The notes beneath the pieces are model-generated. The model searched no databases. It was given only the letters and a program-made list of their open reading frames with translations, and was not told where the DNA came from. From assembly GCA_947086625.1 (NCBI GenBank), contig CAMTZV010000010.1, forward strand, positions 1-10,508: a stretch of DNA of 10,508 bases, in the 5' to 3' direction. This stretch comes from an uncultured bacterium. GTDB taxonomy: Bacteria; Bacillota; Clostridia; Lachnospirales; Lachnospiraceae. Positions 1-10,508 of this stretch are shown here, in pieces; within the stretch, counting starts at the first letter, position 1; each line of letters opens with the position of its first letter. The translations under genes were made by a program, and so were the position numbers.

Positions 1-428
1 TCCACCAGCAAAATCCGCCATGGGCCTTCCGGTCGTTTCTGCCCGCGAAAAGCCGCAGAATCCGCCTGTGGCTCCTCCTCTTGCTGCATAAATTGCAGCC
101 AGGCTTCCCGGACGGGGGCGCGCCGCTGCCGCGACACGGGAACACGCCGTCCGCCCTTTGTCACGGCAAAGCCCCCCTCAATCGCCTGGATACAGCCCAG
201 ATTGACGATATAGGAGCGATGAGATTTCGCAAACTCCGGTCTTTCCAGAAGCGCCCCCTCAAAATCCGTAAGCGCGGCAGTCTCCTCGTGAACACCGCCG
301 TCCGCCATATGGAAGGACACCGTCTTATTGAAAACCTCTACATATTCAATTCCCTGAAAGGGGATTTTGACGGCGCCCTCCCTGTTTTCCAGCACAAGGG
401 CCGCTTCACCGTACACCGTAAGCTGCAT
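1..428 (-). CDS. LytTR DNA-binding protein, probably LytTR-receiver fusion (3' end off window)
   Basis: The first 142 codons are visible; the gene runs off the left edge. Residues about 1-110 form a complete LytTR DNA-binding domain: a strand reading GIEYVEVFNKTVSFHM, then FAKSHRSYIVNL and the closing RRVPVSRQRR, the usual landmarks of this fold in AgrA/LytR-type regulators. A charged linker (QQEEEPQAD, about 117-125) follows, and the last visible residues are WRILLV with the next codon starting GA (Asp or Glu). ILLV(D/E) is the typical first strand of a response-regulator receiver domain, so a LytTR-receiver order is likely, the reverse of the usual one. The start at 428 is chosen because AGGAGGAGG lies 3 bases upstream; an in-frame ATG at 458 has no such site. 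It lies 69 bases after the aldo/keto reductase stop and may be co-transcribed with it. The LytTR call is firm; the receiver is inference from six residues. Confidence 0.85.
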   Translation of the reverse strand, partial: MQLTVYGEAALVLENREGAVKIPFQGIEYVEVFNKTVSFHMADGGVHEETAALTDFEGALLERPEFAKSHRSYIVNLGCIQAIEGGFAVTKGGRRVPVSRQRRAPVREAWLQFMQQEEEPQADSAAFRGQKRPEGPWRILLV

Positions 429-497
429 GATCCTCCTCCTGCATATGGATTCCTGCATCAAATGATGCTGCCCGGATGCGCCGAAATGATTCGTCCT

Positions 498-1631
498 CTA
501 CATGGCAAGCTTCTTCTGAAAATCCGCCATTGCCTCGGAGATTTTGATCTGCTGCGGGCAGACGGCCTCGCAGCTTCTGCAGCCCACGCACGCGGACGGC
601 TGCTTCTCCTGCGGCACTGCCATAAGCGCCATCGGCGCGATAAAGCCGCCCGCGGTAAAGCAGTGCTCATTGTAGAGCGAGATAAGGTGCGGGATGTCCA
701 GCCCCTGCGGGCAGTGCGACGTACAGTAATGGCACGCGGTGCACGGCAAAGTCTTCCCGATCATACCGCGCGCCACGCTAAGCAGCGCGTCCATCTCCTG
801 CGCCGAAAGCGGCGCATCCTCCTCGAAGGTCGCGACATTCTCCATGAGCTGCGCCAGATTCGACATGCCCGAAAGCGTCACCGTTACCGCGGGAATGCTC
901 TGCAAAAACCGAAACGCCCACGCGGGAACCGACTCGCTGCCGCGCAGCTTTTTTAACGTCTGCTCCGCCTCCTTCGAAAGTGCGGCAAGCTTGCCGCCGC
1001 GCAGCGGCTCCATCACCCACACCGGAATGCCGTAGGATTTGAGCAGCTCCAGCTTCTCCTTCGCATTCTGGAACTCGTAGTCCACATAGTTGAGCTGGAT
1101 CTGACAGAACTCCATATCCTTGCCGTAAGCGTCCAGAAACCGCTTCATAACCGCAACACTCCCGTGCGCCGAAAAGCCTAAGTGACGGATGCGCTTATTT
1201 TTCTTCTGCTCCATGAGGTATATATAAATACCGTATTTCTCATCGTCCAGATACGCGTCGATGTTCATCTCGCACACGTTGTGGAAGAGGTAGAAATCAA
1301 AATAATCCACCTTGCACTTCTCGAGCTGCCTCTCAAAAATCTCCCGCACCTTCGGCATGTTGGCCAGATCGTAGCCCGGGAACTTTGTCGCGAGATAAAA
1401 GCTGTCGCGATCGTACTTCCTCAGCACATTTCCCATGACAATCTCGGAGTTGCCGCCGTGATAGCCCCACGCGGTGTCGTAGTAGTTGATCCCGTGCGCC
1501 ATTGCGTAGGCGACCATCTCTCCGACTGCCGCCTCATTGATATCCGCATCGTCCGTCCCGTTTAGCGGCAGGCGCATCGCGCCAAGGCCAAGCGCAGAAA
1601 GCTTCATTCCCTGAAAATCCCTGTAAAGCAT
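498..1631 (-). CDS. Aldo/keto reductase with C-terminal 4Fe-4S ferredoxin domain
   Basis: A 377-residue predicted cytoplasmic oxidoreductase. Residues about 1-285 form an aldo/keto reductase barrel: GLGAMRLPL near the start, then the catalytic tetrad D52 and Y57 (NYYDTAWGYHGG), K83 (ATKFPGY) and H117 (FYLFHNV), and GFSAHG at 152-157. Residues 297-307 (CTACHYCTSHC, followed by P) and 348-358 (CVGCRSCEAVC, followed by P) are two CxxCxxCxxxC motifs, each typical of a 4Fe-4S cluster. The length fits the ferredoxin-fused branch of the family, whose substrates are mostly unknown; electrons may pass between NAD(P)H or a substrate and the clusters. The start at 1631 has AAAGGAGG 6 bases upstream. A promoter with MerR-activated geometry lies just before it, suggesting inducible expression. 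All key residues are present and nothing looks truncated. Physiological substrate not assigned. Confidence 0.93.
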   Translation of the reverse strand: MLYRDFQGMKLSALGLGAMRLPLNGTDDADINEAAVGEMVAYAMAHGINYYDTAWGYHGGNSEIVMGNVLRKYDRDSFYLATKFPGYDLANMPKVREIFERQLEKCKVDYFDFYLFHNVCEMNIDAYLDDEKYGIYIYLMEQKKNKRIRHLGFSAHGSVAVMKRFLDAYGKDMEFCQIQLNYVDYEFQNAKEKLELLKSYGIPVWVMEPLRGGKLAALSKEAEQTLKKLRGSESVPAWAFRFLQSIPAVTVTLSGMSNLAQLMENVATFEEDAPLSAQEMDALLSVARGMIGKTLPCTACHYCTSHCPQGLDIPHLISLYNEHCFTAGGFIAPMALMAVPQEKQPSACVGCRSCEAVCPQQIKISEAMADFQKKLAM

Positions 1632-1665
1632 TGTGATCCTCCTTTAAATTTATATTGATAGATAC

Positions 1666-1696
1666 ACTATAAACCTAAAGCGGACTTTATGTTCAA
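1666..1696 (-). promoter_or_regulatory. Promoter of the aldo/keto reductase, MerR-family design
   Basis: On the minus strand a -35 element TTGAAC (1696-1691) and a -10 element TATAGT (1671-1666) are separated by 19 bases, 2 more than the usual 17. The spacer holds an inverted repeat, CATAAAG-TCCG-CTTTAGG (1691-1674), with 6 of 7 arm positions paired. A long spacer carrying a dyad is the hallmark of promoters activated by MerR-family proteins. The ribosome binding site and ATG (1631) follow at a suitable distance. No MerR gene is in the window, so the regulator is not identified. Confidence 0.6.
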
Positions 1697-1704
1697 GCCC
1701 TTTT

Positions 1705-2715
1705 TTACAATTTTACCCGATAAATATCCCCGGCAAACATATCTCCCATATACAGATACCCGTTGCGCGCCATCAGCGCCCGCGGCTCTGCCGGAATCCT
1801 GCCCTGCCGTCTCGAATTTGCCTCCAGCACAAGTGCGAGCTTTCCGTCCTGCAGACATTTGATACAGCCGTTGCCCGTGTCCGCAATGTAGAGCACACCC
1901 CGGTATACCGTGATCTGCTGCGGATTGGAAAGCGCCGCCTGCATCGGTTCCCCGAGGGCGTCCCCCTCCGCTCCGTTATCGCTCCCCGCGACAATTTTCA
2001 CCTTTCCGTTTGCAATTTTGCATATCCGGTGGTTGCCGGAATCGGCCACATAAAGAGCTCCGTTTTTATAAAACAGGCCGGTCGGCTCGCAGAAGCGCGA
2101 CTGCGCGAGCGTCCCGTTTTCACAGCCCGGCTCACCCGCCGCCCCTGCAAAAGTCGTCACAATCCCATCCGCATCGATCGCGCGGATCGTGTGATTTTCG
2201 GTGTCCGCCACGTAGACTGTCCCGTCGTCTGCGACAGCCAGCCCGGTGGGGCGGTTAAAGGTTGCCGCATCCGCTTTTCCGTTCAAAATCCCCGGCTCCT
2301 TTGCAATACCGGCAAAGGTCGTCACCTGATCGCCGTCGATCCTGCGGATCACATGGTTGCCCGTATCGCTGATGAGATAGCCTTCCCCGTAAGCCGCCAC
2401 ACTCCAGGGACTGTTAAAGCGCGCCTGCGTAAGCGTCCCGTCCGTATACCCGGCATTGCCCGGTATCCCCGCAAGCAGTGCGTAATCATCCTTTTTTAAC
2501 CGCATCCACACGGAATGATTCTCCGTGTCCACCATACAGATGTTTCCGCCGGGAACGCTTGCCATACCGGAAATGGACGCCATCGTCTGCGCCTTCTTCG
2601 CGTCTGCCGCCGGCAGCGTCTGCGCCGCGTCCACCGAAGAAAATCCGGCTCCGAAAAGGAGCGCCGCCGCAAGCGATACCGCCAAAATCCCCTTCTTCCG
2701 TGCCATATCTGCCAT
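1705..2715 (-). CDS. Secreted NHL-repeat beta-propeller protein
   Basis: A 336-residue protein with an N-terminal signal peptide (basic ARKKG, then hydrophobic ILAVSLAAALLFGAG; likely cut near residue 30 after SSVDA). The mature part is a set of NHL repeats, each ending in a D(T/S)xNH-like motif: DTENH at 63, DTGNH at 117, DTENH at 171, DSGNH at 225 and DTGNG at 279. These are exactly 54 residues apart; a divergent sixth copy (GDMFAGD) lies near 324. This predicts a six-bladed propeller, usually a binding or scaffold surface; no catalytic residues are recognised. It has no membrane anchor, LPxTG motif or lipobox. The start at 2715 is preferred because GGAAGG lies 9 bases upstream; a second in-frame ATG at 2706 is possible. 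It follows the CHASE2 cyclase gene by 109 bases and could share its transcript or use a weak promoter of its own. The fold is secure, the ligand unknown. Confidence 0.88.
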   Translation of the reverse strand: MADMARKKGILAVSLAAALLFGAGFSSVDAAQTLPAADAKKAQTMASISGMASVPGGNICMVDTENHSVWMRLKKDDYALLAGIPGNAGYTDGTLTQARFNSPWSVAAYGEGYLISDTGNHVIRRIDGDQVTTFAGIAKEPGILNGKADAATFNRPTGLAVADDGTVYVADTENHTIRAIDADGIVTTFAGAAGEPGCENGTLAQSRFCEPTGLFYKNGALYVADSGNHRICKIANGKVKIVAGSDNGAEGDALGEPMQAALSNPQQITVYRGVLYIADTGNGCIKCLQDGKLALVLEANSRRQGRIPAEPRALMARNGYLYMGDMFAGDIYRVKL

Positions 2716-2732
2716 ACCTGTTTTCCTTCCCT

Positions 2733-2761
2733 TCTATAACTAATAAATAAGAACAATACAA
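2733..2761 (-). promoter_or_regulatory. Possible weak promoter of the NHL gene
   Basis: In the AT-rich gap before the NHL gene the minus strand shows TTGTAT (2761-2756), a 17-base spacer and TATAGA (2738-2733). The -10 matches 4 of 6 consensus bases and the -35 only 3 of 6. The position is plausible, but in such AT-rich DNA chance matches are common. Confidence 0.25.
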
Positions 2762-2822
2762 AAAATGATACACCATCTCTGCCGCACAGGCCGTACAGGC
2801 GAAATGAGAGCAAAGAGAGATG
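2762..2822 (-). terminator. Possible terminator or long-arm inverted repeat after the cyclase gene
   Basis: Just after the cyclase stop, CATCTCT (2822-2816 on the minus strand) pairs perfectly with AGAGATG (2780-2774) across 35 bases. A run of six Ts follows at about 2766-2761. The stem is only 7 pairs and the T run starts some 8 bases after it, so this is a weak candidate. If it works, it would separate the signalling operon from the NHL gene. Confidence 0.25.
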
Positions 2823-2824
2823 AC

Positions 2825-4633
2825 CTACAGCAGCCGCTCCGCCCGCAGCACCTCAAAGCCCGCCGCTTTGCCCTTCAGTGTGATGGAATCTCCAAGCGAC
2901 GTGAACTGTACGCGCCCCTCCAACGCATCCGCCACCGCACGACTCACATAGATCATGCCGCCCGGCGCGTTCGCCTCGAGACGGGAGGCGGTGTTGACCG
3001 TATCCCCGATCGCCGTGTAGTCCATACGGTTTTTCGCGCCGATATTGCCCACGACCGCCGGACCATAGTGGACGCCGATCCCAAAGCCGACCGTGCGCCC
3101 GTATTTCTCCTGCAGTTCCTCCTGCAGCGCCCGCGCGCCCTCGCGCATGTCAAACGCCGTCTTTACCGCTTTGTAAATACTGTCCTCCTGCGGCAGCGGC
3201 GCACCCCAGAACGCCATCGTGCAGTCACCGATGAACTTGTCCAGCGTCCCGGTATTTTTGAAGATACACTCGCTGGTCAAAGTCAAATATCGATTTAAAA
3301 TCTCTACAATCTCTTCCGGATTCATAAGCTCCGACATGGAGGTAAATCCCCGGATATCGACAAAGAGCACCGCAATGTCGCAAAGCCGGCCGCCTAAGGC
3401 AGCCGCATCCGAACCCTCCTTCAACAGCTCCGAGACGATCTCCGGCGCCACATAGCGCTCAAACGTCGCCGTCACCCGGCGCTTCTCAAGCGTCTCCCGC
3501 ACATAATTTGACGCCACGCTCACCACGTAAAGCACAGCAACGGCCGCCACGAGATACAGCGGTGAGAGGACAACACCTCCGGCTGCTGCCGCAAAACAAA
3601 CCGCGATATAACAAACGACCGTTCCTGCCAGCACAAGCGTTGCGGGGAGCATCCTTCTGCGATAAAAAAACATGCCGCACAATATACTCACGACAAACAA
3701 GGCAAGCGCCTGCCAGGCGTTTGGAAGCTCCCGCATCGTCCGCCCGTGAATGAGCGCGTCGAGCATGTTCGCCTGGTACTCAATACCGTACATCTTCGTC
3801 GCATGGTCGATGGCAGTCGTAAAATCGTCCTGCATGCCCGCCGCATACGGCCCGATCAAGACGATCTTTCCCGCATAGACAGAACGGTCGATCATTCCGT
3901 CCAACAGATCGATGACACCGTAGCCATCACTGTAATCGCCGGGATTTCCCTGGAACGGTACATAATAGCAATCCCTGCTGTCACAAAAAGGCACGGTGTC
4001 CGCCGCAATCCCCTTCGATTCGCAGTAAAGCTCATATATTTTCCGGTGAAACGAGGGCACGGCCGTGCCGTCGGGCAGCCGGATCTCCCAGATACCGTGG
4101 CGCAGGATGCCGTCCCGGTCAAACATGGAATTGATGTGTCCCTGAAAGCTGTTCTCCTTTAAGGCCTCGTAGGGCTCGTCAAACGCCACCAGCCCATCCG
4201 CCATATAAAAGCTGCCGTCGTCTTCCGTCACAAGCGTCGTGTCATACGTCCCGGCACACGCCGCAACGACCGGACAGCCCGCGCCCGCCATTTCGGCAAG
4301 ATACGCGTCGCCCTCCGGATCGTCCGACTCCCCGACGTATAGCACGTCGAGCGCCACAACCGCAGGCGCCGTCGCAGGATCTTCGTTTAAAATTGCGAGC
4401 ACATCCCCCATGAGCGCCCTGCCCCAGTCCCCGAAGGGACCGAGCGCGTCAAGGCTCGCCTGATCGATGTTGATGAGGACGATCTCGCCGTCCTTTGGCA
4501 CCGGACGCTGGCAGATCAGATCCGAAAACGCCTGATCCTGCGAATAAAAGACGTTTCCGAGCATCAGTCCCGCAAAGAGCGCGCCGACGAGCAGCCCGCC
4601 AGCCATCCGGTGAAAAAGATTTTTCTTATCCAT
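2825..4633 (-). CDS. CHASE2-domain class III adenylate cyclase (membrane sensor)
   Basis: A 602-residue membrane enzyme that should convert ATP to cAMP. Order: short cytoplasmic start, membrane segment about 11-30, an extracellular CHASE2 sensor about 31-300 (ending in YGIEYQANMLDAL), three membrane segments (about 305-323, 329-350, 353-374), a short basic linker, then a class III cyclase domain about 412-600. Both metal-binding aspartates are present (D426 in VLFVDIRGF, D470 in DKFIGD). K466 and T540 (MDYTAIGD) sit at the purine-recognition positions, the Lys/Thr pair of class IIIb adenylyl cyclases, and N547 and R551 (VNTASRLE) are the transition-state residues. The domain therefore looks active and specific for ATP. 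The start is 6 bases after the FecR stop with no good Shine-Dalgarno site, suggesting translational coupling. CHASE2 beside FecR implies sensing outside the membrane. The cyclase call is very firm; the ligand is unknown. Confidence 0.95.
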   Translation of the reverse strand: MDKKNLFHRMAGGLLVGALFAGLMLGNVFYSQDQAFSDLICQRPVPKDGEIVLINIDQASLDALGPFGDWGRALMGDVLAILNEDPATAPAVVALDVLYVGESDDPEGDAYLAEMAGAGCPVVAACAGTYDTTLVTEDDGSFYMADGLVAFDEPYEALKENSFQGHINSMFDRDGILRHGIWEIRLPDGTAVPSFHRKIYELYCESKGIAADTVPFCDSRDCYYVPFQGNPGDYSDGYGVIDLLDGMIDRSVYAGKIVLIGPYAAGMQDDFTTAIDHATKMYGIEYQANMLDALIHGRTMRELPNAWQALALFVVSILCGMFFYRRRMLPATLVLAGTVVCYIAVCFAAAAGGVVLSPLYLVAAVAVLYVVSVASNYVRETLEKRRVTATFERYVAPEIVSELLKEGSDAAALGGRLCDIAVLFVDIRGFTSMSELMNPEEIVEILNRYLTLTSECIFKNTGTLDKFIGDCTMAFWGAPLPQEDSIYKAVKTAFDMREGARALQEELQEKYGRTVGFGIGVHYGPAVVGNIGAKNRMDYTAIGDTVNTASRLEANAPGGMIYVSRAVADALEGRVQFTSLGDSITLKGKAAGFEVLRAERLL

Positions 4634-4639
4634 ATGCCG

Positions 4640-5968
4640 TTACGCGCCGCTTCCCGCAGACTGCTTTGACGTCTCGACAAACTTGCCGAAGCCTCCGAGC
4701 AATACCTTTCCCTTGCCCTCCAGCTTATCCGCCTTAAGCATGCTGAAATTGTAGACAACGCCCTTTTCGTTGACCTTAATGCTGCCTGTGAGCTGTAAGC
4801 TCGCACTCTGATCGATATAGAGCGCGGCATTATTATCGATCGTCCACTCTTTGCCGGTGATCGTCACACTGTCCAGAACGAGCACCTTCCCGTCGTTGAT
4901 ATTTAAGGTGTCGATATTGATCTGATTCGTCGTCCCCGTGGAACCGCCCTTTATGTACACGGTCTTCTTCGTATTCCACGCCTGCTCGATCTCCTGCTTT
5001 ACGTCCTTTCCGGCAGCAATTACCGTGTCCAGATCGATCAGGGCAAGATCGCTGCTGCTAAAATCCCACTTTGGCATCTCGATCTTTTCCGGCTGCTCGG
5101 GCTTTGTCGGATCGGTCGGCTGTGTCGGGTCTGTCGGCTGTGTCGGCTGATCGGGCTTTGACGGCTGCTCCGGCTGCGTGGGCTGCTCGGGCTTCGTCGG
5201 CTGCTCCGGCTTTTCGGGCTGGACGGGCGGCTGCGGCTGTGTCGGCTGAACCGTCTCTATGATCTTTTGTACGTCGGGCCCGCCCATCTCGGTGATTTTC
5301 TGCTGCAAGGCCGTATCCTTTGCGACCTCCTCTGCCGCAAAAGCCGGAACTTCCGCGGGCGCAAGCACTGTGACAGCCGGGACCGTCTGCGCATTTTTCG
5401 TAAGCGTCAGCTTCTGGCCGCTCTTTAAGGCAACCGGCTCCACCTCCCCGGTCTTCGGGTTTTTCCAGTTAATCTCCAAGGCGCCCTCCAGGAGATACAC
5501 GCTTGCCGTATCGTTACCTGCCGCCTCGATAACGCCGCACGTGCCGCGCACACCGGTCACCATCGTGGAAGTCTGCACGTCCATCGACTCTCCGGTCTTC
5601 AAGGGTACGTTCACGTTGAAAAACAGCTTTCCCTTTTTCACAAGAAGCTTCAGCTTCCTGCCGTCCTGACGCACCTGAACCTTTGCGTTGGCATCCAGCT
5701 TCACCGCCTTGCTCGAATCAAGGCTGATATAAGCATAGCTGCCGCTTCCGGTCTCGATGACGTTGCCGTTGTAGAGACGCATATTCTTTGTAATACTTCT
5801 CGCGCTCCCGTTCAGCGTCCTGAGCGTCACACGCGGTCCGCTCGTCGCGGCCAGCCGCATTGTCGTGGCTCTCGCGACCGCGCCGAATACCGTCACGCAC
5901 ATGCCCAGCGCCAGCGTACACGCCAGAAGCAGGCACAACATCCGTTTCACATTTCCGTTTCTTTTCAT
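4640..5968 (-). CDS. Secreted FecR-domain protein with Pro-rich linker and beta-rich C-terminus
   Basis: A 442-residue exported protein. Residues 1-34 form a signal peptide (MKRNGNVKRM, then LCLLLACTLALGM, likely cut near VARA). Residues about 45-165 are a FecR domain, with its repeated short strands (GSYAYISLDSSKAVKLDANA) and the signature TGVRGTCGV at 138-146. Residues 241-296 are a repetitive PEQPT/QPTDPT linker, and 345-425 are strand-rich (TLNINDGKVLVLDSVTIT, LYIDQSASLQL), resembling a short beta-solenoid. Unlike Gram-negative FecR there is no cytoplasmic anti-sigma part, and no sigma factor gene is nearby. It has no LPxTG motif; the LLAC at 14-17 comes too early in the hydrophobic core for a convincing lipobox. 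AAAGGAG lies 10 bases before the start. Placed between HD-GYP and CHASE2 cyclase genes in one operon, it is a candidate extracellular partner of the CHASE2 sensor (inference). Confidence 0.9.
   Translation of the reverse strand: MKRNGNVKRMLCLLLACTLALGMCVTVFGAVARATTMRLAATSGPRVTLRTLNGSARSITKNMRLYNGNVIETGSGSYAYISLDSSKAVKLDANAKVQVRQDGRKLKLLVKKGKLFFNVNVPLKTGESMDVQTSTMVTGVRGTCGVIEAAGNDTASVYLLEGALEINWKNPKTGEVEPVALKSGQKLTLTKNAQTVPAVTVLAPAEVPAFAAEEVAKDTALQQKITEMGGPDVQKIIETVQPTQPQPPVQPEKPEQPTKPEQPTQPEQPSKPDQPTQPTDPTQPTDPTKPEQPEKIEMPKWDFSSSDLALIDLDTVIAAGKDVKQEIEQAWNTKKTVYIKGGSTGTTNQINIDTLNINDGKVLVLDSVTITGKEWTIDNNAALYIDQSASLQLTGSIKVNEKGVVYNFSMLKADKLEGKGKVLLGGFGKFVETSKQSAGSGA
5084..5248 (-). repeat. Low-complexity Pro/Gln/Glu/Thr repeat in the FecR gene
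   Basis: This stretch encodes residues 241-295 of the FecR protein as imperfect short units such as PEQPTK, PEQPTQ, QPTDPT and QPTDPTK. The DNA is a run of related 9-18 base units (GTCGG and GGCTGCTC recur on the plus strand), so it can expand or contract by slippage. In exported Gram-positive proteins such Pro-rich segments usually act as stiff spacers across the cell wall. Confidence 0.9.
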
Positions 5969-6028
5969 TTTGTTGGAACTCCTTTCTCTTCATTTTACAA
6001 TTTTTTTACAGGCAAAACCGGCTATCCG

Positions 6029-7504
6029 CTATCGCTCATCCGTCTGCCCGCTTTCGGGCAGGGGTTTCCATGCCCCGCTCTCCTCAAATAATTCGACGAT
6101 GTTCCGGTCCAGCTCCCCCCGATCCGCCATCCGGTAAAGAATGGCAAACGAGTCGTCGATTTGGATTGCACCTTTATATTTACGGTCTCTTGCAGTCAAA
6201 GCCTCATAAATATCGATAATCATCAAAAGCCGCGACTCCATGCTGATCTGATCCCCCGTAAGCCCCCGCGGGTAGCCGCTGCCGTCAAGCCGCTCGTGGT
6301 GCTGGCTCGCCCACAGCAGAATCTTGCTGTAGCTGCCCTCGAGGTTCATCTGGGTCAGCATCCGCTCCGTCATGGCCGCATGCTTCTGCATCTCCTTTCG
6401 CTCCGCCGTCGTGAGCGTCCCTTTCCGCACGAGCAGCTGGTCGCGCTCCTCCGGCGTGACCCACGGACATACGCTTCCGTCCGTCTCCCGGTATGTCTCC
6501 CGCGCAAGCTCCTTCACGCGGTCGCGATAGTCGTCGGTCAGGTAGCCCGCCGTGTTGACCTCCTGCACAAGCGCTTTTGCTTCCGCAAGCCTTTCATAAC
6601 GGCTTTTACACTTCTCCGGTGCAAGCGTTCCGGAGAGCTCCTCAATCTGCGTCAACAGCCCGATCCTTTCAAGCCGGGCGTGGAGCCGCTCCTCGTTTGC
6701 GCCGAGACGGCTCGGCTTATCCATGATCTCCTGCGGAATGACGAGCTTGCCGATATCGTGCAGCCACGCGCTCATGAGAAATATCTGCTTATCCTCCTCC
6801 GAGAACTTCCACGAGAGCGGCTGCGCGTTCAGCCAGTCGATAAACCGTCCGGCGTAGCGCACCATCGTCTTCGTGTGGTTCGCGTTGTAGGGCGTACGCG
6901 CGTCGATCGCCGTCGTCATCACCTGCACAAAGGAATTCAGCATGTGCTGGATCTGATGGGAATAGCTGATATTGACGAGACAGATCGCCGCCTGCGAGCC
7001 AAGCGAGTGTAAAATCTGCTCATCCATCTGCGGAAACGGAATCACGTTCCCGTCCGCATCCATCGCATTGATCAGCTCCACCACGCCGATGACGTTTTCC
7101 TTGTCATCCTCCATCGGCACGACAAGCAGCGACTTCGTGTGGTAGCCCGTCATCGCGTCGTATTGTTTCGGACCGGAAAAATCGTACTCCGAGCACTCGT
7201 AGACATCCGGTATGTTGATGAGCCTGCGCTCAAGCGCCGAGAGCGCACAGACGTTGCTGCGCACAAGCGGCACCGGCGGCATATTGATCGCGTCCCCTTC
7301 GCTGCCCTGGTGCACGCCCTTCGAGCGCGTGATCATAATGTTAAATTCCAGCTCTGTGCCGTTGTTGATGTAGAGCGTCCCCCCGTCGCAGCCGGTTAAA
7401 TCCATCGCTGCCTCCAGGATCCGGTCCAAAAGCTTTTCCTTGCTGCGCTCCTTTGAGAAGGCGATCCCAAGGTTTAAAATCCGCTGTATTTTTTTGTCAT
7501 TCAT
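6029..7504 (-). CDS. GAF and HD-GYP domain protein, probable c-di-GMP phosphodiesterase
   Basis: A 491-residue cytoplasmic signalling enzyme. Residues about 20-180 are a GAF small-molecule sensor (LTGCDGGTLYI, SLLVVPMEDDKENVIGVVELIN). Residues about 190-475 are an HD-GYP phosphohydrolase: H210, H249-D250 with K253 (AWLHDIGKLVIP), H375, H402-H403 (QHHERLDGSG), G410-Y411-P412, and D431 (IIDIYEALTARD). This is the metal-binding set expected for hydrolysis of c-di-GMP. Between HDIGK and H375 lie about 120 residues, roughly 85-90 more than in a typical HD-GYP domain; the insert is charged and mostly helical, ending PWVTPEERDQLLVRKGTLT. I recall similar inserts in a GAF-HD branch but could not check. 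The ATG overlaps the upstream hydrolase stop (ATGA), showing coupled translation. FecR and adenylate cyclase genes follow, so the GAF domain might read a cyclic nucleotide (speculative). Activity is inferred from motifs. Confidence 0.92.
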   Translation of the reverse strand: MNDKKIQRILNLGIAFSKERSKEKLLDRILEAAMDLTGCDGGTLYINNGTELEFNIMITRSKGVHQGSEGDAINMPPVPLVRSNVCALSALERRLINIPDVYECSEYDFSGPKQYDAMTGYHTKSLLVVPMEDDKENVIGVVELINAMDADGNVIPFPQMDEQILHSLGSQAAICLVNISYSHQIQHMLNSFVQVMTTAIDARTPYNANHTKTMVRYAGRFIDWLNAQPLSWKFSEEDKQIFLMSAWLHDIGKLVIPQEIMDKPSRLGANEERLHARLERIGLLTQIEELSGTLAPEKCKSRYERLAEAKALVQEVNTAGYLTDDYRDRVKELARETYRETDGSVCPWVTPEERDQLLVRKGTLTTAERKEMQKHAAMTERMLTQMNLEGSYSKILLWASQHHERLDGSGYPRGLTGDQISMESRLLMIIDIYEALTARDRKYKGAIQIDDSFAILYRMADRGELDRNIVELFEESGAWKPLPESGQTDER

Positions 7505-8328
7505 AATGTGATTACTTCCCCCGCACGGGCGAACCGTATGTCCGCGTTTTCGTTATTCTGCCGGTACTCCCGCTCAAGTGAGAGCAGCAGCTCATCCTCA
7601 TGCTCCGGCGCATGGTGGAACAAAAGCCCGATCCCCGGCCCAAGCTCGTTTAAGAGCCGGCAGGCACGCGCGATCGCATTGTGTCCGAAGCCGCGGAATT
7701 TTGTATATTCCTGCGGCAAATACTGTGCATCCAGTATTATTATATCGGCATTTTTGGCAAATTCTTTCAGCTCTTTTTCGCTTTTATCGTCCAGCTCACA
7801 GTCCGTCGCATAGACGACGCGCTTACCCCCGCCGCTGAAGCGGTAAAGCGCCACGCCGCCCGGGTGCTTCGCACGCATGCACTCCGCCACCGGCCCGCCG
7901 CCTGCGAGCGGAAACGCCCCGCTTAACTGACGAAACGCAATATTCGCCAGAAACGCCTCCTCGCCCACCGGCCAGAGCGGCTCCCGCATCAGCGCATCGA
8001 TCGCGTTTTTCGGCGGCATCTGGAAGTCTGCGCCGCACACCGTCAGCTTAAAACGCCTGTCATACATCGGCTTCCACATCGGCAGTCCCAGCAGATGATC
8101 CGAGTGGTAGTGCGATAAAAACAGATACCAGGGCAGCGCCCGCTCCATATTCTGATCCTTCAGGCGCAAAAGCCCGCTGCCCGCATCGAGAATGATCCGC
8201 GCATCGTTCCACTCCAGATACACACATGAGGTCGCCCCGCCGAATATCCGGTATTCCTCCCCGTCCGTCGGCACACTTCCGCGCGCGCCTAAAATGTGCA
8301 GCCGAACCTCCGCTTCCTTTTCTTTCAT
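7501..8328 (-). CDS. Metallo-beta-lactamase-fold hydrolase
   Basis: A 275-residue soluble hydrolase of the PhnP/RNase Z-like branch of the metallo-beta-lactamase fold (COG1235-like). Numbered from the ATG at 8328: GARGSVP and FGGATSCVYLEW lie near the start, then ILDAGSG, the metal motif H73-x-H75-x-D77-H78 (LFLSHYHSDH), H155 (AKHPGG), D176 (YATDCE), DAQYLPQEY, H216 (GFGHNA) and HHAPEHEDE at 238-246. All dinuclear-metal ligands are present, so it should be active. Substrates in this branch include phosphodiesters and cyclic nucleotides; the one used here is unknown. An in-frame ATG at 8364 exists but has no ribosome binding site; 8328 has GGAAG 5 bases upstream and removes a basic tail not seen in the family. 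It is the first gene of the four-gene operon, behind a good promoter and a short hairpin. The fold is firm, the function open. Confidence 0.9.
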   Translation of the reverse strand: MKEKEAEVRLHILGARGSVPTDGEEYRIFGGATSCVYLEWNDARIILDAGSGLLRLKDQNMERALPWYLFLSHYHSDHLLGLPMWKPMYDRRFKLTVCGADFQMPPKNAIDALMREPLWPVGEEAFLANIAFRQLSGAFPLAGGGPVAECMRAKHPGGVALYRFSGGGKRVVYATDCELDDKSEKELKEFAKNADIIILDAQYLPQEYTKFRGFGHNAIARACRLLNELGPGIGLLFHHAPEHEDELLLSLEREYRQNNENADIRFARAGEVITL

Positions 8329-8372
8329 ATCCTCTTCCACCACCCGTCGTTTTCCGGCAATCATCAGCCTGC

Positions 8373-8390
8373 GCCAAAGCCCTCTTTGGC
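8373..8390 (-). promoter_or_regulatory. Perfect hairpin in the 5' leader of the signalling operon
   Basis: GCCAAAG-AGGG-CTTTGGC forms a perfect 7-pair stem with a 4-base loop. It lies about 7-25 bases after the predicted transcription start of the hydrolase gene. No T run follows on either strand, so it is not an intrinsic terminator. It could be an operator or an RNA element in the leader. Confidence 0.5.
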
Positions 8391-8403
8391 ACTGTCACTA
8401 CTT

Positions 8404-8432
8404 ATTATAGTACGGGACAAAATATTCGTAAA
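8404..8432 (-). promoter_or_regulatory. Promoter of the four-gene signalling operon
   Basis: The minus strand has a perfect -10 TATAAT (8409-8404), a 17-base spacer and TTTACG (8432-8427) as -35 (4 of 6). This is the best sigma-A-type promoter ahead of the hydrolase gene and would give a leader of about 70 bases. A TTGACA further upstream (about 8441) is too far from this -10 to serve it. Confidence 0.6.
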
Positions 8433-8588
8433 GCCCTTTGTCAAAAAAGGGGTTGTGAGCGGAACGGGTCGTGAATCGTAACAACTGTTTCTGAATTTTG
8501 TATGCGTCCTGCCAACACCTCCCGCCAAATGTTTGTTTTGCTATACAAGCCCGGAGATTTGTATAGACACATTTTTCGGATACCATGC
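8433..8588. other. Divergent intergenic region with an operator-like palindrome
   Basis: This gap lies between the minus-strand signalling operon and the plus-strand Ig-like gene. It holds a perfect palindrome at 8541-8566: CTATACAA, 10 bases, TTGTATAG. The right arm overlaps the -35 area of the plus-strand gene, a typical place for a repressor. The rest (8441-8540) has no convincing gene; a 62-codon minus-strand frame there lacks a ribosome binding site and overlaps both promoters. Confidence 0.5.
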
Positions 8589-8594
8589 TATAAT
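8564..8594 (+). promoter_or_regulatory. Promoter of the Ig-like protein gene (extended -10)
   Basis: The -10 is a perfect TATAAT at 8589-8594 preceded by TGC, an extended -10 that can work with a poor -35. The nearest -35-like hexamer is TAGACA at 8564-8569 with a 19-base spacer. The start would fall near 8601, giving a leader of about 38 bases. Confidence 0.65.
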
Positions 8595-8624
8595 AGGTGA
8601 CAGTTCAAACAGAAAATAAAAAAC

Positions 8625-8630
8625 GGAGGT
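8625..8630 (+). promoter_or_regulatory. Ribosome binding site that fixes the ATG at 8639
   Basis: GGAGGT is 8 bases before the ATG at 8639, an ideal spacing. The next in-frame ATG of the long reading frame, at 8683, has nothing similar. This shows translation is meant to begin at 8639 and exposes the frame problem in the gene that follows. Confidence 0.85.
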
Positions 8631-8638
8631 ACAAAGCA

Positions 8639-9312
8639 ATGAAACATTACAAAAGATCTTATGCGGCGCACTCGCCGCGGCAATGGCACTCACAATGGCG
8701 GCTACGCCGGTTTCCGCAGCCGCAAAGCCGAAGCTCTCAAAGACAAAGCTTTCGATGACGGTGGGCGACACCGCAACCTTAAAGGTCAAAAACGCCGCCA
8801 AAAAGGAAAAGATTACGTGGAAGAGCAACAAGAAGGCCGTTGCCGCCGTCACCGCAAAGGGCAAGGTAACCGCGAAGAAGGCAGGCAAGGCTGTCATCAG
8901 CGCAACCTTGAAAAATGCGAAAAAGACCCTGAAGTGCAGCGTCACCGTTAAGGCAGCTGCAAAGCCCGAAGAGACCACACAGGACATCACCGCTATGCTC
9001 GCAGGTAAGAGCTACGCCGGAAGCGCCGAGGCAATGGGCGTAAAGATGGACGTGCTGAAGCTGACCTTCGGTGATGCGGGAGCCGTAACCGGCGCAATGC
9101 TCGATACGACTTCCATGCAGATGAAGGAATTCACCGGAACCTACACCGCAACGCTCTCCGGCAAGACCGTAACCATCACAGTCACCGCAGCAGACGGCAC
9201 GACGATGACCGAGACACTCACCGTCGTAAAGGACGATTTCTCGGAGCTTTCCGCGACAAAGACCGTGGCCGGCATGGAAATCCCCGTTACGGTTGTGGAA
9301 GTGAAGGAATAA
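8639..9312 (+). CDS. Secreted Ig-like (BIG2) protein with apparent one-base frameshift in the signal peptide
   Basis: The ATG at 8639 has an ideal ribosome binding site but its frame is soon lost (MKHYKRSYAAHS). The long frame, open from before the ATG to the stop at 9312, reads KILCGALAAAMALTMAATPV then SA from 8653. One more A in the run at 8651-8654 would join MKHYKK to it, giving a normal 27-residue signal peptide and a protein of about 224 residues. Numbered from the ATG at 8683, residues 17-90 are a BIG2 Ig-like domain (LSMTVGDTATLKVKN, ITWKSNKKAVAAV, GKVTAKKAGKAVISAT), rich in lysine, and 104-209 form a strand-rich domain I do not recognise (YAGSAEAMGVKMDVLKLTFG, then paired TxTITVTA strands). 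It has no anchor motif, so it is probably secreted or wall-associated. It is either a sequencing or assembly indel or a true frameshift; translation from 8683 would leave a poor signal peptide. Confidence 0.8.
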
Positions 9313-9331
9313 ACCCTTTCTTATTATTAAG

Positions 9332-9363
9332 AAACGAAAAAACGTATGCGTTTTGATTTGTTT
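9332..9363. terminator. Weak AT-rich terminator after the Ig-like gene
   Basis: About 20 bases after the stop, AAAACG-TATG-CGTTTT forms a perfect 6-pair hairpin, with A-rich sequence before it and GATTTGTTT after it. The stem has only two G-C pairs, so it is weak, but its place between convergent genes and A/T flanks on both sides suit a bidirectional terminator. Confidence 0.35.
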
Positions 9364-9370
9364 CCTGCGC

Positions 9371-9412
9371 CGGATGCACGCCGAGAAGCGACATAATCGT
9401 GCTGTGCATCCG
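9371..9412. repeat. Inverted repeat in the convergent intergenic region
   Basis: CGGATGCAC (9371-9379) and GTGCATCCG (9404-9412) are perfect 9-base inverted arms around a 24-base spacer. There is no T run and no nearby transposase. It could be the stem of a small RNA, part of a dispersed intergenic element, or the trace of a lost mobile element; I cannot tell which. Confidence 0.5.
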
Positions 9413-9445
9413 TGCGCATCCTGCCGAAGGCAAATAGTAAACGCA

Positions 9446-9535
9446 ATGGTTCTTTCGTTTCCGTTCACTCCGGAGCAAGAAAAAATTGACAAGCTGAAAG
9501 AAGAAATCGCAGAGTTGAAAAGCAAAATAGCATAA
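9446..9535 (+). other. Tiny coiled-coil ORF, gene remnant or small protein
   Basis: The frame reads MVLSFPFTPEQ, then a 4-3 heptad-like amphipathic helix (KIDKLKEEIAELKSKIA) to the stop at 9535, 29 residues in all. An in-frame ATG at 9353 would give 60 residues but runs through the inverted repeat. No good ribosome binding site precedes either start. The helix looks more protein-like than a random frame, so it may be the tail of a decayed gene or a small protein. The rest of the 9313-9586 gap holds only the hairpin and inverted repeat listed separately. Confidence 0.25.
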
Positions 9536-9586
9536 CAGCTCATTTGTCCCCCCAACCGTCTTGATGCACAAAATATCCGTGTAAAT

Positions 9587-10228
9587 TCAGCATTTCTTTT
9601 CCTGCCCGTGCCGCTCCCGGTACGAGTACACGCACCCGCAATAATTCTGACGGTACATCCCATATTCCCTTGACAGCTCCGTCGAGCGCTTATAGCCGTT
9701 TTTCTTTTTAAAATCCGAGTACAGGTAGCGCACGCCAAGCTCCTCCCCGACCCGCCCGCCGATCTCGTTCAGCTTTTCGGCGTTTTTGAGCGGGCTGATG
9801 GAAAGCGTCGTCGTAAAATAGTCAAAGCCCCGCTCTTTCGCAAGCATTCCCGCCTCCCGCAGCCGCATCTCATAGCACAGAAAGCAGCGTGCGCCGCCCT
9901 CCTTTTCCCCCTCAAACCCCTTTACCGTCCCGTAAAAGCGCGCGGTGTCATAAGCGCCCTCCACAAACGAGACCGGATGGCGCGCCGGAAAGCGCCCGAT
10001 GAACTCCTGCTGCTCGCGCACACGCATCGCGTACTCCTCCCTCGGATAGATGTTCGGATTGTAATAAAAAACCGTGATAAAAAAATAATCGGACAGATAT
10101 TCGAGCACATAGCTGCTGCACGGCGCACAGCAGCTGTGCAGAAAAAGAGTCGGCGCGCATCCGCCTGCCGCGCCGATCTTGTCTATTATATGATCCAATT
10201 CTTTCTGATAATTTCTGACCGCGTTCAT
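9587..10228 (-). CDS. queH: Epoxyqueuosine reductase QueH
   Basis: A 213-residue enzyme of the QueH (formerly DUF208) family, which reduces epoxyqueuosine to queuosine in tRNA, the last step of queuosine making, replacing the unrelated QueG. Family cysteines are all present: C33-C34 and C37 in LFLHSCCAPCSSYVLEYL, C115 and C118 in GARCFLCYEMRL, and C197 and C199 in YCGCVYS. The adjacent CC pair and the CxxC are the expected 4Fe-4S ligands. Other family landmarks are YYNPNIYPREEY (55-66), YFTTTLSISPLKN (137-149) and the late KKKNGYKRS (174-182). The length is normal. The start is 9 bases after the carB stop with only a weak ribosome binding site, so translation is probably coupled to carB. No other queuosine gene is in the window. 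It ends in a convergent gap facing the Ig-like gene, with no clear terminator. Confidence 0.95.
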   Translation of the reverse strand: MNAVRNYQKELDHIIDKIGAAGGCAPTLFLHSCCAPCSSYVLEYLSDYFFITVFYYNPNIYPREEYAMRVREQQEFIGRFPARHPVSFVEGAYDTARFYGTVKGFEGEKEGGARCFLCYEMRLREAGMLAKERGFDYFTTTLSISPLKNAEKLNEIGGRVGEELGVRYLYSDFKKKNGYKRSTELSREYGMYRQNYCGCVYSYRERHGQEKKC

Positions 10229-10237
10229 ATCGCTTAC

Positions 10238-10508
10238 CTAACCCCGTCTCGCGATCGACGCGATATCAATCAGCGTCAATTCTCCCTGGCTCGCCGCATT
10301 TTCCAGACTGGTCACCAGCGCAGCCGCCGTGTCCATGGCCGTGATACAGTTCACACCCGTCTCAATGGAAGTCCGTCGGATCAGGAAACCGTCCCTGCTC
10401 TTATCCCGTCCCTGTGTGGGGGTGTCAATCACCAAATCAATCTTATGCCCCAGAATCAAATCCATCACCGTAGGCGATTCCTGTGAAATCTTGTTCACCT
10501 TTCTCGCC
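10238..10508 (-). CDS. carB: Carbamoyl-phosphate synthase large subunit, C-terminal part (5' end off window)
   Basis: The last 90 or so residues of CarB, which with CarA makes carbamoyl phosphate for arginine and pyrimidines. The visible part is the C-terminal MGS-like allosteric domain: VNKISQESPTVMDLI, then DLVIDTPTQGRD and RDGFLIRR, which form the phosphate-binding and effector site, and NCITAMDTAAALVTSL. The frame is open to the window edge, so the GTG at 10498 is an internal valine and not a start. The domain ends normally at RRG, then TAG. The effector in this family is usually UMP or ornithine; which applies here cannot be read from this piece. queH follows 9 bases later. Confidence 0.95.
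   Translation of the reverse strand, partial: ARKVNKISQESPTVMDLILGHKIDLVIDTPTQGRDKSRDGFLIRRTSIETGVNCITAMDTAAALVTSLENAASQGELTLIDIASIARRG

Follow-up and report, generated by a model that had tools for sequence, protein, structure and literature searches.

Why should a sensor-cyclase, a cyclic di-GMP (c-di-GMP) enzyme, a hydrolase and two putative surface proteins be encoded in a row on one strand of clostridial DNA? This question is raised by a contig of an uncultured member of the Lachnospiraceae (CAMTZV010000010.1), of which positions 1 to 10,508 were analysed (10,508 nucleotides; the whole stretch is referred to as the window hereafter). On its reverse strand lie, in the order of transcription, the genes of a metallo-beta-lactamase (MBL)-fold hydrolase, a GAF-HD-GYP protein, a FecR-domain protein, a CHASE2 sensor joined to a class III cyclase, and an NHL-repeat protein. 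Judging from the sequences, this clostridial cassette probably relays an outside signal in series, from cyclic AMP (cAMP) to c-di-GMP, by way of the CHASE2-cyclase, a GAF-headed enzyme, and a hydrolase that destroys cAMP.

In the proposed relay, a surface cue would act on CHASE2 together with the FecR and NHL proteins, and the class III cyclase would then make cAMP. The cAMP would be bound by the GAF domain, altering the attached HD-GYP domain (c-di-GMP breakdown) or, in other species, a GGDEF domain (synthesis). Finally, cAMP would be hydrolysed near the receiver by the MBL or by the TIM-barrel enzyme that substitutes for it, and the relay would be reset. An earlier note on this DNA had the two messengers changed in parallel by one stimulus; an arrangement in series is the most likely one, with the GAF domain looking like a cAMP receiver.

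Conservation of the gene set in Clostridia

Loci were collected in three ways. One is a similarity-chosen set from species genomes: of 138 loci encoding close relatives of the cyclase, the best 80 were taken. Another is a survey of the family: CHASE2 was found in 27 of 150 genomes (the window's own counted), and 29 of the 30 other places were fetched, G071:C11 being omitted. The last is a survey of the class, in which CHASE2 was found in 18 of 393 genomes (the window's own and G016 counted) and 18 further loci were fetched. The architectures of the loci were read with domain models that started from the window plus a few relatives and were then iterated. Six of the 127 loci carry a CHASE2 without a class III cyclase match (L094, L098, L106, L108, L155 and L156). 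From the 121 cyclase loci, 52 with less than 4 kb upstream or less than 3 kb downstream and 2 with identical cyclases were removed, and at the resulting 67 non-redundant loci the domain matches within 10 kb were counted.

The gene set is conserved, and the cassette occurs in gut and rumen clostridia. A hydrolase lies near the CHASE2-cyclase in 55 of the 67 loci (an MBL in 46 and a TIM barrel in 9, never together), a receiver-output protein in 57, a FecR protein in 55, and an NHL protein in 33. The hydrolase and the output are found, respectively, in 33 and 32 of 39 similarity-chosen loci, in 15 and 15 of 17 loci of the family survey, and in 7 and 10 of 11 loci of the class survey; seven loci have neither (L024, L035, L049, L061, L072, L099 and L140). 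The gene order is variable, with 23 arrangements among 39 loci. Hydrolase and output are both present in 74 of the 121 cyclase loci, and in 68 of these 74 they are fused or adjacent (domain gap below 300 nt) on the same strand. The outcome that the earlier note named as refuting, a gene set not kept together in related genomes, did not occur, and its idea of one unit in which predicted enzymes of cAMP and of c-di-GMP are joined gains support from the conserved set.

The association also appears at the level of whole genomes. The profile of the HD-GYP subfamily (E ≤ 1e-90) found matches in 19 of the 27 family genomes with CHASE2 versus 4 of the 123 without it (Fisher p about 1e-13), and the MBL profile in 12 of 27 versus 1 of 123 (p about 1e-9); in some genomes only part of the first-look candidates was scored for these counts, and the profiles include some of the counted sequences, so that the recovery in the CHASE2-bearing genomes is partly by construction, while the near-absence in the others is unaffected. 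Full-length HD-GYP matches (at least 570 bits) occur in 17 of 27 versus 2 of 123 genomes, all 17 on the CHASE2-bearing contig, the 570-bit line having been set after the scores were known (the preset threshold gives the 19 and 4 above). Since HD_5 domains are few per genome (1–16 in the 27 CHASE2-bearing genomes counted), chance neighbours should be uncommon.

The CHASE2-cyclase as predicted cAMP source

CHASE2 is an extracytoplasmic sensor in known proteins. For the cyclase domain, we take the metal-binding residues to be an Asp pair, those of purine selection to be Lys and Thr/Asp, and those of the transition state to be Asn and Arg. All 122 cyclases have the purine Lys and Thr, the Asn, the Arg and the second metal Asp; the first metal Asp was seen in 121, the remaining sequence having a gap there. 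The window protein has the sequence features of adenylate cyclase-type class III enzymes (PF00211, 92.7 bits; cut-off 21.9). It is the sole PF00211 match in its assembly, a fragmented metagenome-assembled genome (2.40 Mb, 508 contigs, 68% complete) for which claims of absence are accordingly limited. Across the 27 CHASE2-bearing family genomes, one PF00211 match was found in 22, two in 3, and none in 2. The CHASE2-class III cyclase is predicted to make cAMP.

In some loci, CHASE2 is joined to other parts and the cyclase part is missing. CHASE2-HD-GYP fusions occur in L094 (7657-9711, +; 684 aa) and L098 (5613-7655, −; 680 aa) and would shorten the relay to a single protein; the two genomes with such fusions (G001 and G071) additionally encode a CHASE2-cyclase. 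A CHASE2-SpoIIE phosphatase fusion occurs in L106 (6851-8791, +; 646 aa), and in L108 (4713-6962, −; 749 aa) CHASE2 is joined to an unidentified C-terminal part. The CHASE2-HD-GYP and CHASE2-SpoIIE fusions point to sensor and outputs as natural partners, with the cyclase-receiver pair as a relay inserted between them.

The GAF-HD-GYP protein as candidate receiver

The GAF domain of the window protein is the only match to PF01590, the GAF model searched, in the 68%-complete assembly. Among its solved relatives at E ≤ 0.01, 20 of 21 are cyclic-nucleotide GAFs (several entries from few proteins), namely those of PDE2, PDE5, PDE6, PDE10, CyaB2 and Lcd1 (5w10); the remaining one is the GAF-HD-GYP structure 4mcw, presumably PmGH. 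Two control GAFs gave zero cyclic-nucleotide GAF relatives in the same PDB comparison. The GAF domain therefore looks like the cAMP receiver of the HD-GYP protein. Enzymes of c-di-GMP under cAMP control are known singly (Lcd1, Tlr0485 and Bd1971; available text of PMC8846402 and PMC6717892), and the former source lists Tlr0485 (GAF-HD-GYP) and Lcd1 (GAF-GGDEF) as activated by cAMP.

The HD-GYP part has the metal residues and the GYP signature of its family (HD_5, 107.6 bits; cut-off 27.2), and the GAF score is 53.3 bits, also above its cut-off. The catalytic residues are conserved: in alignment A1, which comprises the window protein and 50 of 61 sequences (near-duplicates, some close relatives and the split L009 omitted), H210, H249, D250, K253, H375, H402, H403, D431, G410 and Y411 are invariant in 51 of 51. 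A helical insertion of about 85 residues is present across this aligned subfamily; in the structure model (predicted local distance difference test, pLDDT, 92.7) its helices are at 270-291, 296-318 and 324-334. The protein is predicted to be a c-di-GMP phosphodiesterase.

Exchange of the receiver-output proteins

The output protein has been swapped repeatedly between species, in plug-in fashion. A GAF-GGDEF protein instead of GAF-HD-GYP lies directly before the MBL gene in the Butyrivibrio-type loci L013, L016, L029 and L037, and likewise in L107, and MBL-GAF-GGDEF fusions exist in 9 loci, two of which share identical cyclases. GGEEF is present in all 16 GAF-GGDEF proteins. Proteins headed by a cyclic-nucleotide-binding (cNMP) domain also take this place: cNMP-SpoIIE occurs in L110, in L091, where its gene directly precedes that of the cyclase, and in L142, where it lies 3.3 kb upstream of the cyclase; cNMP-DUF2225 occurs in L090 and L141. 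HATPase and STAS genes were identified in L091 by Pfam, and homologues of both in L142, an arrangement as in an anti-sigma partner switch. On the cyclase tree, the output label requires 8 changes (four states need at least 3), against 1 for the hydrolase label; this was a quick tree of 86 of the 122 cyclases, those near full length with a known output or hydrolase. The earlier note named c-di-GMP breakdown; across the loci, the slot may hold a phosphodiesterase (HD-GYP), a synthase (GGDEF) or a phosphatase.

Two arrangements are given here with their positions. In L091 (7097-11658, +) and L142 (3290-10404, +), the genes of cNMP-SpoIIE, cyclase, HATPase and STAS lie together, possibly as a cAMP-controlled partner switch. 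In L015 (4283-8642), the cyclase is accompanied by an MBL and then two HD-domain proteins, the second with a C-terminal cNMP-binding domain.

A different reading of the receiver has to be weighed: the cyclase and the HD-GYP enzyme would answer one stimulus independently, cAMP acting through CRP-type regulators and GAF sensing something else. We regard this as unlikely, although several points speak for it and against the relay in series. GAF domains bind many ligands, and cNMP_binding domains exist somewhere in 22 of the 27 CHASE2-bearing family genomes, so that CRP-type targets are possible. In addition, the complete NKFDE motif, which we take as the criterion of a cyclic-nucleotide GAF, is found in neither type: among 61 HD-GYP-type GAFs, N is present in 61, K in 4, F in 61, D in 8 and E in 48, and among the GGDEF-type GAFs, N, K, F and D are present in 16 of 16 and E in 0 of 16. 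These domains are therefore placed as working like cyclic-nucleotide GAFs, not as proven members. The substrate of the HD-GYP part is not certain either, a phosphodiesterase specific for 3'3'-cGAMP (5z7c) being a close relative too. Set against the independent outputs are the solved relatives of the window GAF, nearly all of which are cyclic-nucleotide GAFs, unlike those of the two controls; the substitution of cNMP-headed proteins for the GAF protein in other clusters; and four genomes (G016, G071, G097 and G103; 98–100% complete) that carry the cassette with a GAF output and in which the cNMP_binding domain was not found (with the GAF gene of G016 and that of G103 on the other strand).

The window's own organism was also considered as one without any cAMP receptor. 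This was rejected: PF00027 was not found, but the assembly is 68% complete and a genus-mate has 3.

MBL and TIM-barrel hydrolases as candidate off-switches

In the available text of PMC9293780, atypical class-II phosphodiesterases are defined by PF12706 and the motif [T/S]HXHXDH. Both were found in 62 of the 63 MBL domains of the loci, which thereby have the sequence features of that class; alignment A2 comprises the window MBL and 47 of 51 MBLs (near-duplicates, some close relatives and the split L009 omitted). By profile, the nearest solved relatives of the window MBL are 1zkp and YhfI (6kns), followed by RNase Z. YhfI prefers cAMP/cGMP (available text of PMC9117128).

Three features of the hydrolases make cAMP their likely substrate. 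One is that a hydrolase is retained where the output is GGDEF or SpoIIE, neither of which makes pGpG. Another is that it is sometimes fused to the GAF-output protein, as was directly observed. The last is that, in one part of the tree, the MBL gives way to an unrelated TIM barrel of about 260 residues (AP_endonuc_2/xylose-isomerase-like) beside the CHASE2 cyclases, for example in L091 and L112; this barrel occurs alone or fused as TIM-GAF-HD-GYP. The two solved relatives of the TIM barrel (MJ1311 and TTHB071) are both uncharacterised, and no function could be taken from them. The MBL hydrolase likely destroys cAMP, which agrees with the suggestion of the earlier note that it ends the cAMP signal.

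It is less probable still than independent outputs that the MBL and TIM hydrolases act after HD-GYP, on pGpG or GMP, or process RNA, and are not cAMP phosphodiesterases. The MBL scores higher with the RNase Z model TIGR02651 (54.4 bits; curated cut-off 292.95) than with the cyclic-nucleotide phosphodiesterase model NF041851 (29.2 bits; curated cut-off 400), remaining below both cut-offs, and in the fold comparison of its structure model (pLDDT 93.4) RNase Z and YhfI (21% identical) are equally close; the retention of the hydrolase beside outputs that make no pGpG was described above. The candidate that the MBL is the housekeeping RNase Z was discarded, a separate RNase Z having been found at G000:C61 (303.9 bits).

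More tentatively, and with somewhat less than even confidence, we make two proposals jointly. The TIM barrel would be a class of cyclic-nucleotide phosphodiesterase that has so far gone unrecognised, and the cassette as a whole would work as a plug-in relay, in which a single sensor-cyclase is combined with one or the other of two unrelated off-switches and with exchangeable receiver-outputs (GAF-HD-GYP, GAF-GGDEF, cNMP-SpoIIE plus an anti-sigma partner switch, cNMP-DUF2225, and HD-cNMP).

That the genes are chance neighbours, or share regulation alone without a common pathway, is very improbable: although NHL is present in just 33 of 67 loci, the arrangements are many and parts are missing at some loci, the set survives the reshuffling of its order, shows several fusion combinations, and co-occurs across genomes with the Fisher values given above.

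FecR and NHL proteins on the presumed input side

By eye, the FecR protein of the window has a signal-peptide-like start, a proline-rich linker and a repeat-like C-terminal region, and the NHL protein has a signal-peptide-like start. We infer that both would present the cue to CHASE2. The FecR lengths range from about 290 to 1,681 residues across the loci (three shorter, cut or broken frames omitted). The longest ones, of 1,513 (L029:4225-8766) and 1,681 residues (L027:6957-12002), suggest surface proteins of great length whose outer parts vary.

Layout of the window

The features of the window are listed in Table 1. The intergenic distances in the order of transcription are −4 (an overlap), 60, 6 and 109 nt. 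The four genes, their single strand, the 4-base overlap and the gaps of 60 and 6 nt given in the earlier note were confirmed; its four-gene operon stands as placed but missed a fifth co-directional member, the NHL gene. For the MBL gene, an internal ATG at 8328 is a second plausible start. The "one good promoter" of that note is a well-placed site, and its claim to be special was rejected, because the number of promoter-like sites in the window is not enriched (8 versus 6.3, sd 2.6, in shuffles).

Table 1 Features of the window (positions in the 10,508-nucleotide stretch)
Feature	Position	Strand	Evidence
MBL-fold hydrolase (Lactamase_B_2), predicted cyclic-nucleotide phosphodiesterase	7501-8364	−	Pfam 57.2 bits, cut-off 27
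SHYHSDH metal motif of MBL, fits [T/S]HXHXDH	8095-8115	−	sequence
GAF-HD-GYP protein, predicted cAMP-controlled c-di-GMP phosphodiesterase	6029-7504	−	Pfam, aligned catalytic residues, model
GAF domain, candidate cAMP receiver	6977-7438	−	Pfam, PDB relatives
HDIGK metal/catalytic motif	6746-6760	−	H, D, G, K invariant in 51/51
Helical insertion, about 85 residues, between HD motif and third metal histidine	6455-6706	−	A1 alignment, gap versus 4mcw, model
HHERLDGSGYP, HD-GYP signature	6269-6301	−	HHE and G.GY invariant in 51/51
FecR-domain protein	4640-5968	−	Pfam FecR 39.2 bits, above cut-off
CHASE2 sensor and class III cyclase, predicted adenylate cyclase	2825-4633	−	Pfam CHASE2 106, Guanylate_cyc 92.7 bits, both above cut-off
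CHASE2 domain	3674-4576	−	Pfam 106 bits
Cyclase catalytic domain	2867-3379	−	metal Asp pair, Lys/Thr purine pair, Asn, Arg present
NHL-repeat protein, fifth member	1705-2715	−	Pfam NHL 105.4 bits
Promoter-like site TTTACG-17-TATAAT, upstream of MBL gene	8404-8432	−	10/12 matches
Aldo/keto reductase with 4Fe-4S domain	498-1631	−	
Big_2 domain protein, upstream of operon	8683-9312	+	
QueH epoxyqueuosine reductase	9587-10228	−	

The cassette is flanked by ordinary genes (the aldo/keto reductase and QueH), and upstream of the operon the forward strand encodes a Big_2 domain protein. In an Rfam search of the window and five relatives, the sole match over the gathering score was a tetrahydrofolate riboswitch (L010:1924-2024, +), which lies upstream of the cassette region and is apparently unrelated.

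Significance and comparison with known systems

To our knowledge, little is understood of cAMP signalling in Clostridia, and cross-talk of cAMP with c-di-GMP has usually been inferred from scattered regulators. Here, the cAMP source, the predicted receiver and the predicted off-switch lie within one cluster, and the source is the sole class III cyclase found in 22 of the 27 CHASE2-bearing family genomes; a serial two-messenger relay could therefore be tested directly with three purified proteins. The swaps of the output found in nature (breakdown, synthesis, phosphatase) offer an experiment already set up, and from the TIM-barrel replacement a new family of phosphodiesterases is predicted.

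The earlier note knew of no Gram-positive system with this exact set. A clostridial cassette with a c-di-GMP arm, output swaps and a TIM-barrel off-switch was indeed not found in the open-access literature, which is a weak negative, but part of the set is known: a cluster of CHASE2 adenylate cyclase, cAMP phosphodiesterase, FecR and TPR has been reported from Campylobacterota (PMC9239204). In both, the CHASE2 cyclase has a FecR-domain protein and a cAMP phosphodiesterase, a predicted one in the cassette, as neighbours; unlike the cassette, the Campylobacterota cluster has a TPR protein and an outer-membrane FecR protein, and the available text mentions no GAF-HD-GYP or GAF-GGDEF member. TPR (E ≤ 0.01) was not found among the nine window proteins scanned, and the window thus falls outside the four-gene definition of the Campylobacterota cluster. 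CHASE2 adenylate/guanylate cyclases of Sinorhizobium meliloti likewise feed a cAMP pathway, and no c-di-GMP arm is mentioned in the available text (PMC13001267).

The single parts have relatives as well. Tlr0485 of Thermosynechococcus shares by description the GAF and HD-GYP architecture and the cAMP input, but, unlike the case of the cassette, an operon with a cyclase and a cAMP phosphodiesterase is not mentioned in the available text (PMC8846402). The GAF-HD-GYP structure 4mcw is 25% identical to the window protein, the aligned region lacking the helical insertion. The atypical class-II phosphodiesterases Rv1339, YhfI and CpdA of C. glutamicum share PF12706 and [T/S]HXHXDH with the MBL (available text of PMC9293780 and PMC9117128), whereas the cassette MBL, with its 21% identity to YhfI, is encoded or fused with a GAF-c-di-GMP enzyme. 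Finally, Lcd1 of Leptospira (PDB 5w10), from a different phylum, is a cAMP-dependent GAF-GGDEF diguanylate cyclase (available text of PMC8846402); unlike Lcd1, the GAF-GGDEF proteins of the cassette adjoin the hydrolase or are fused to it.

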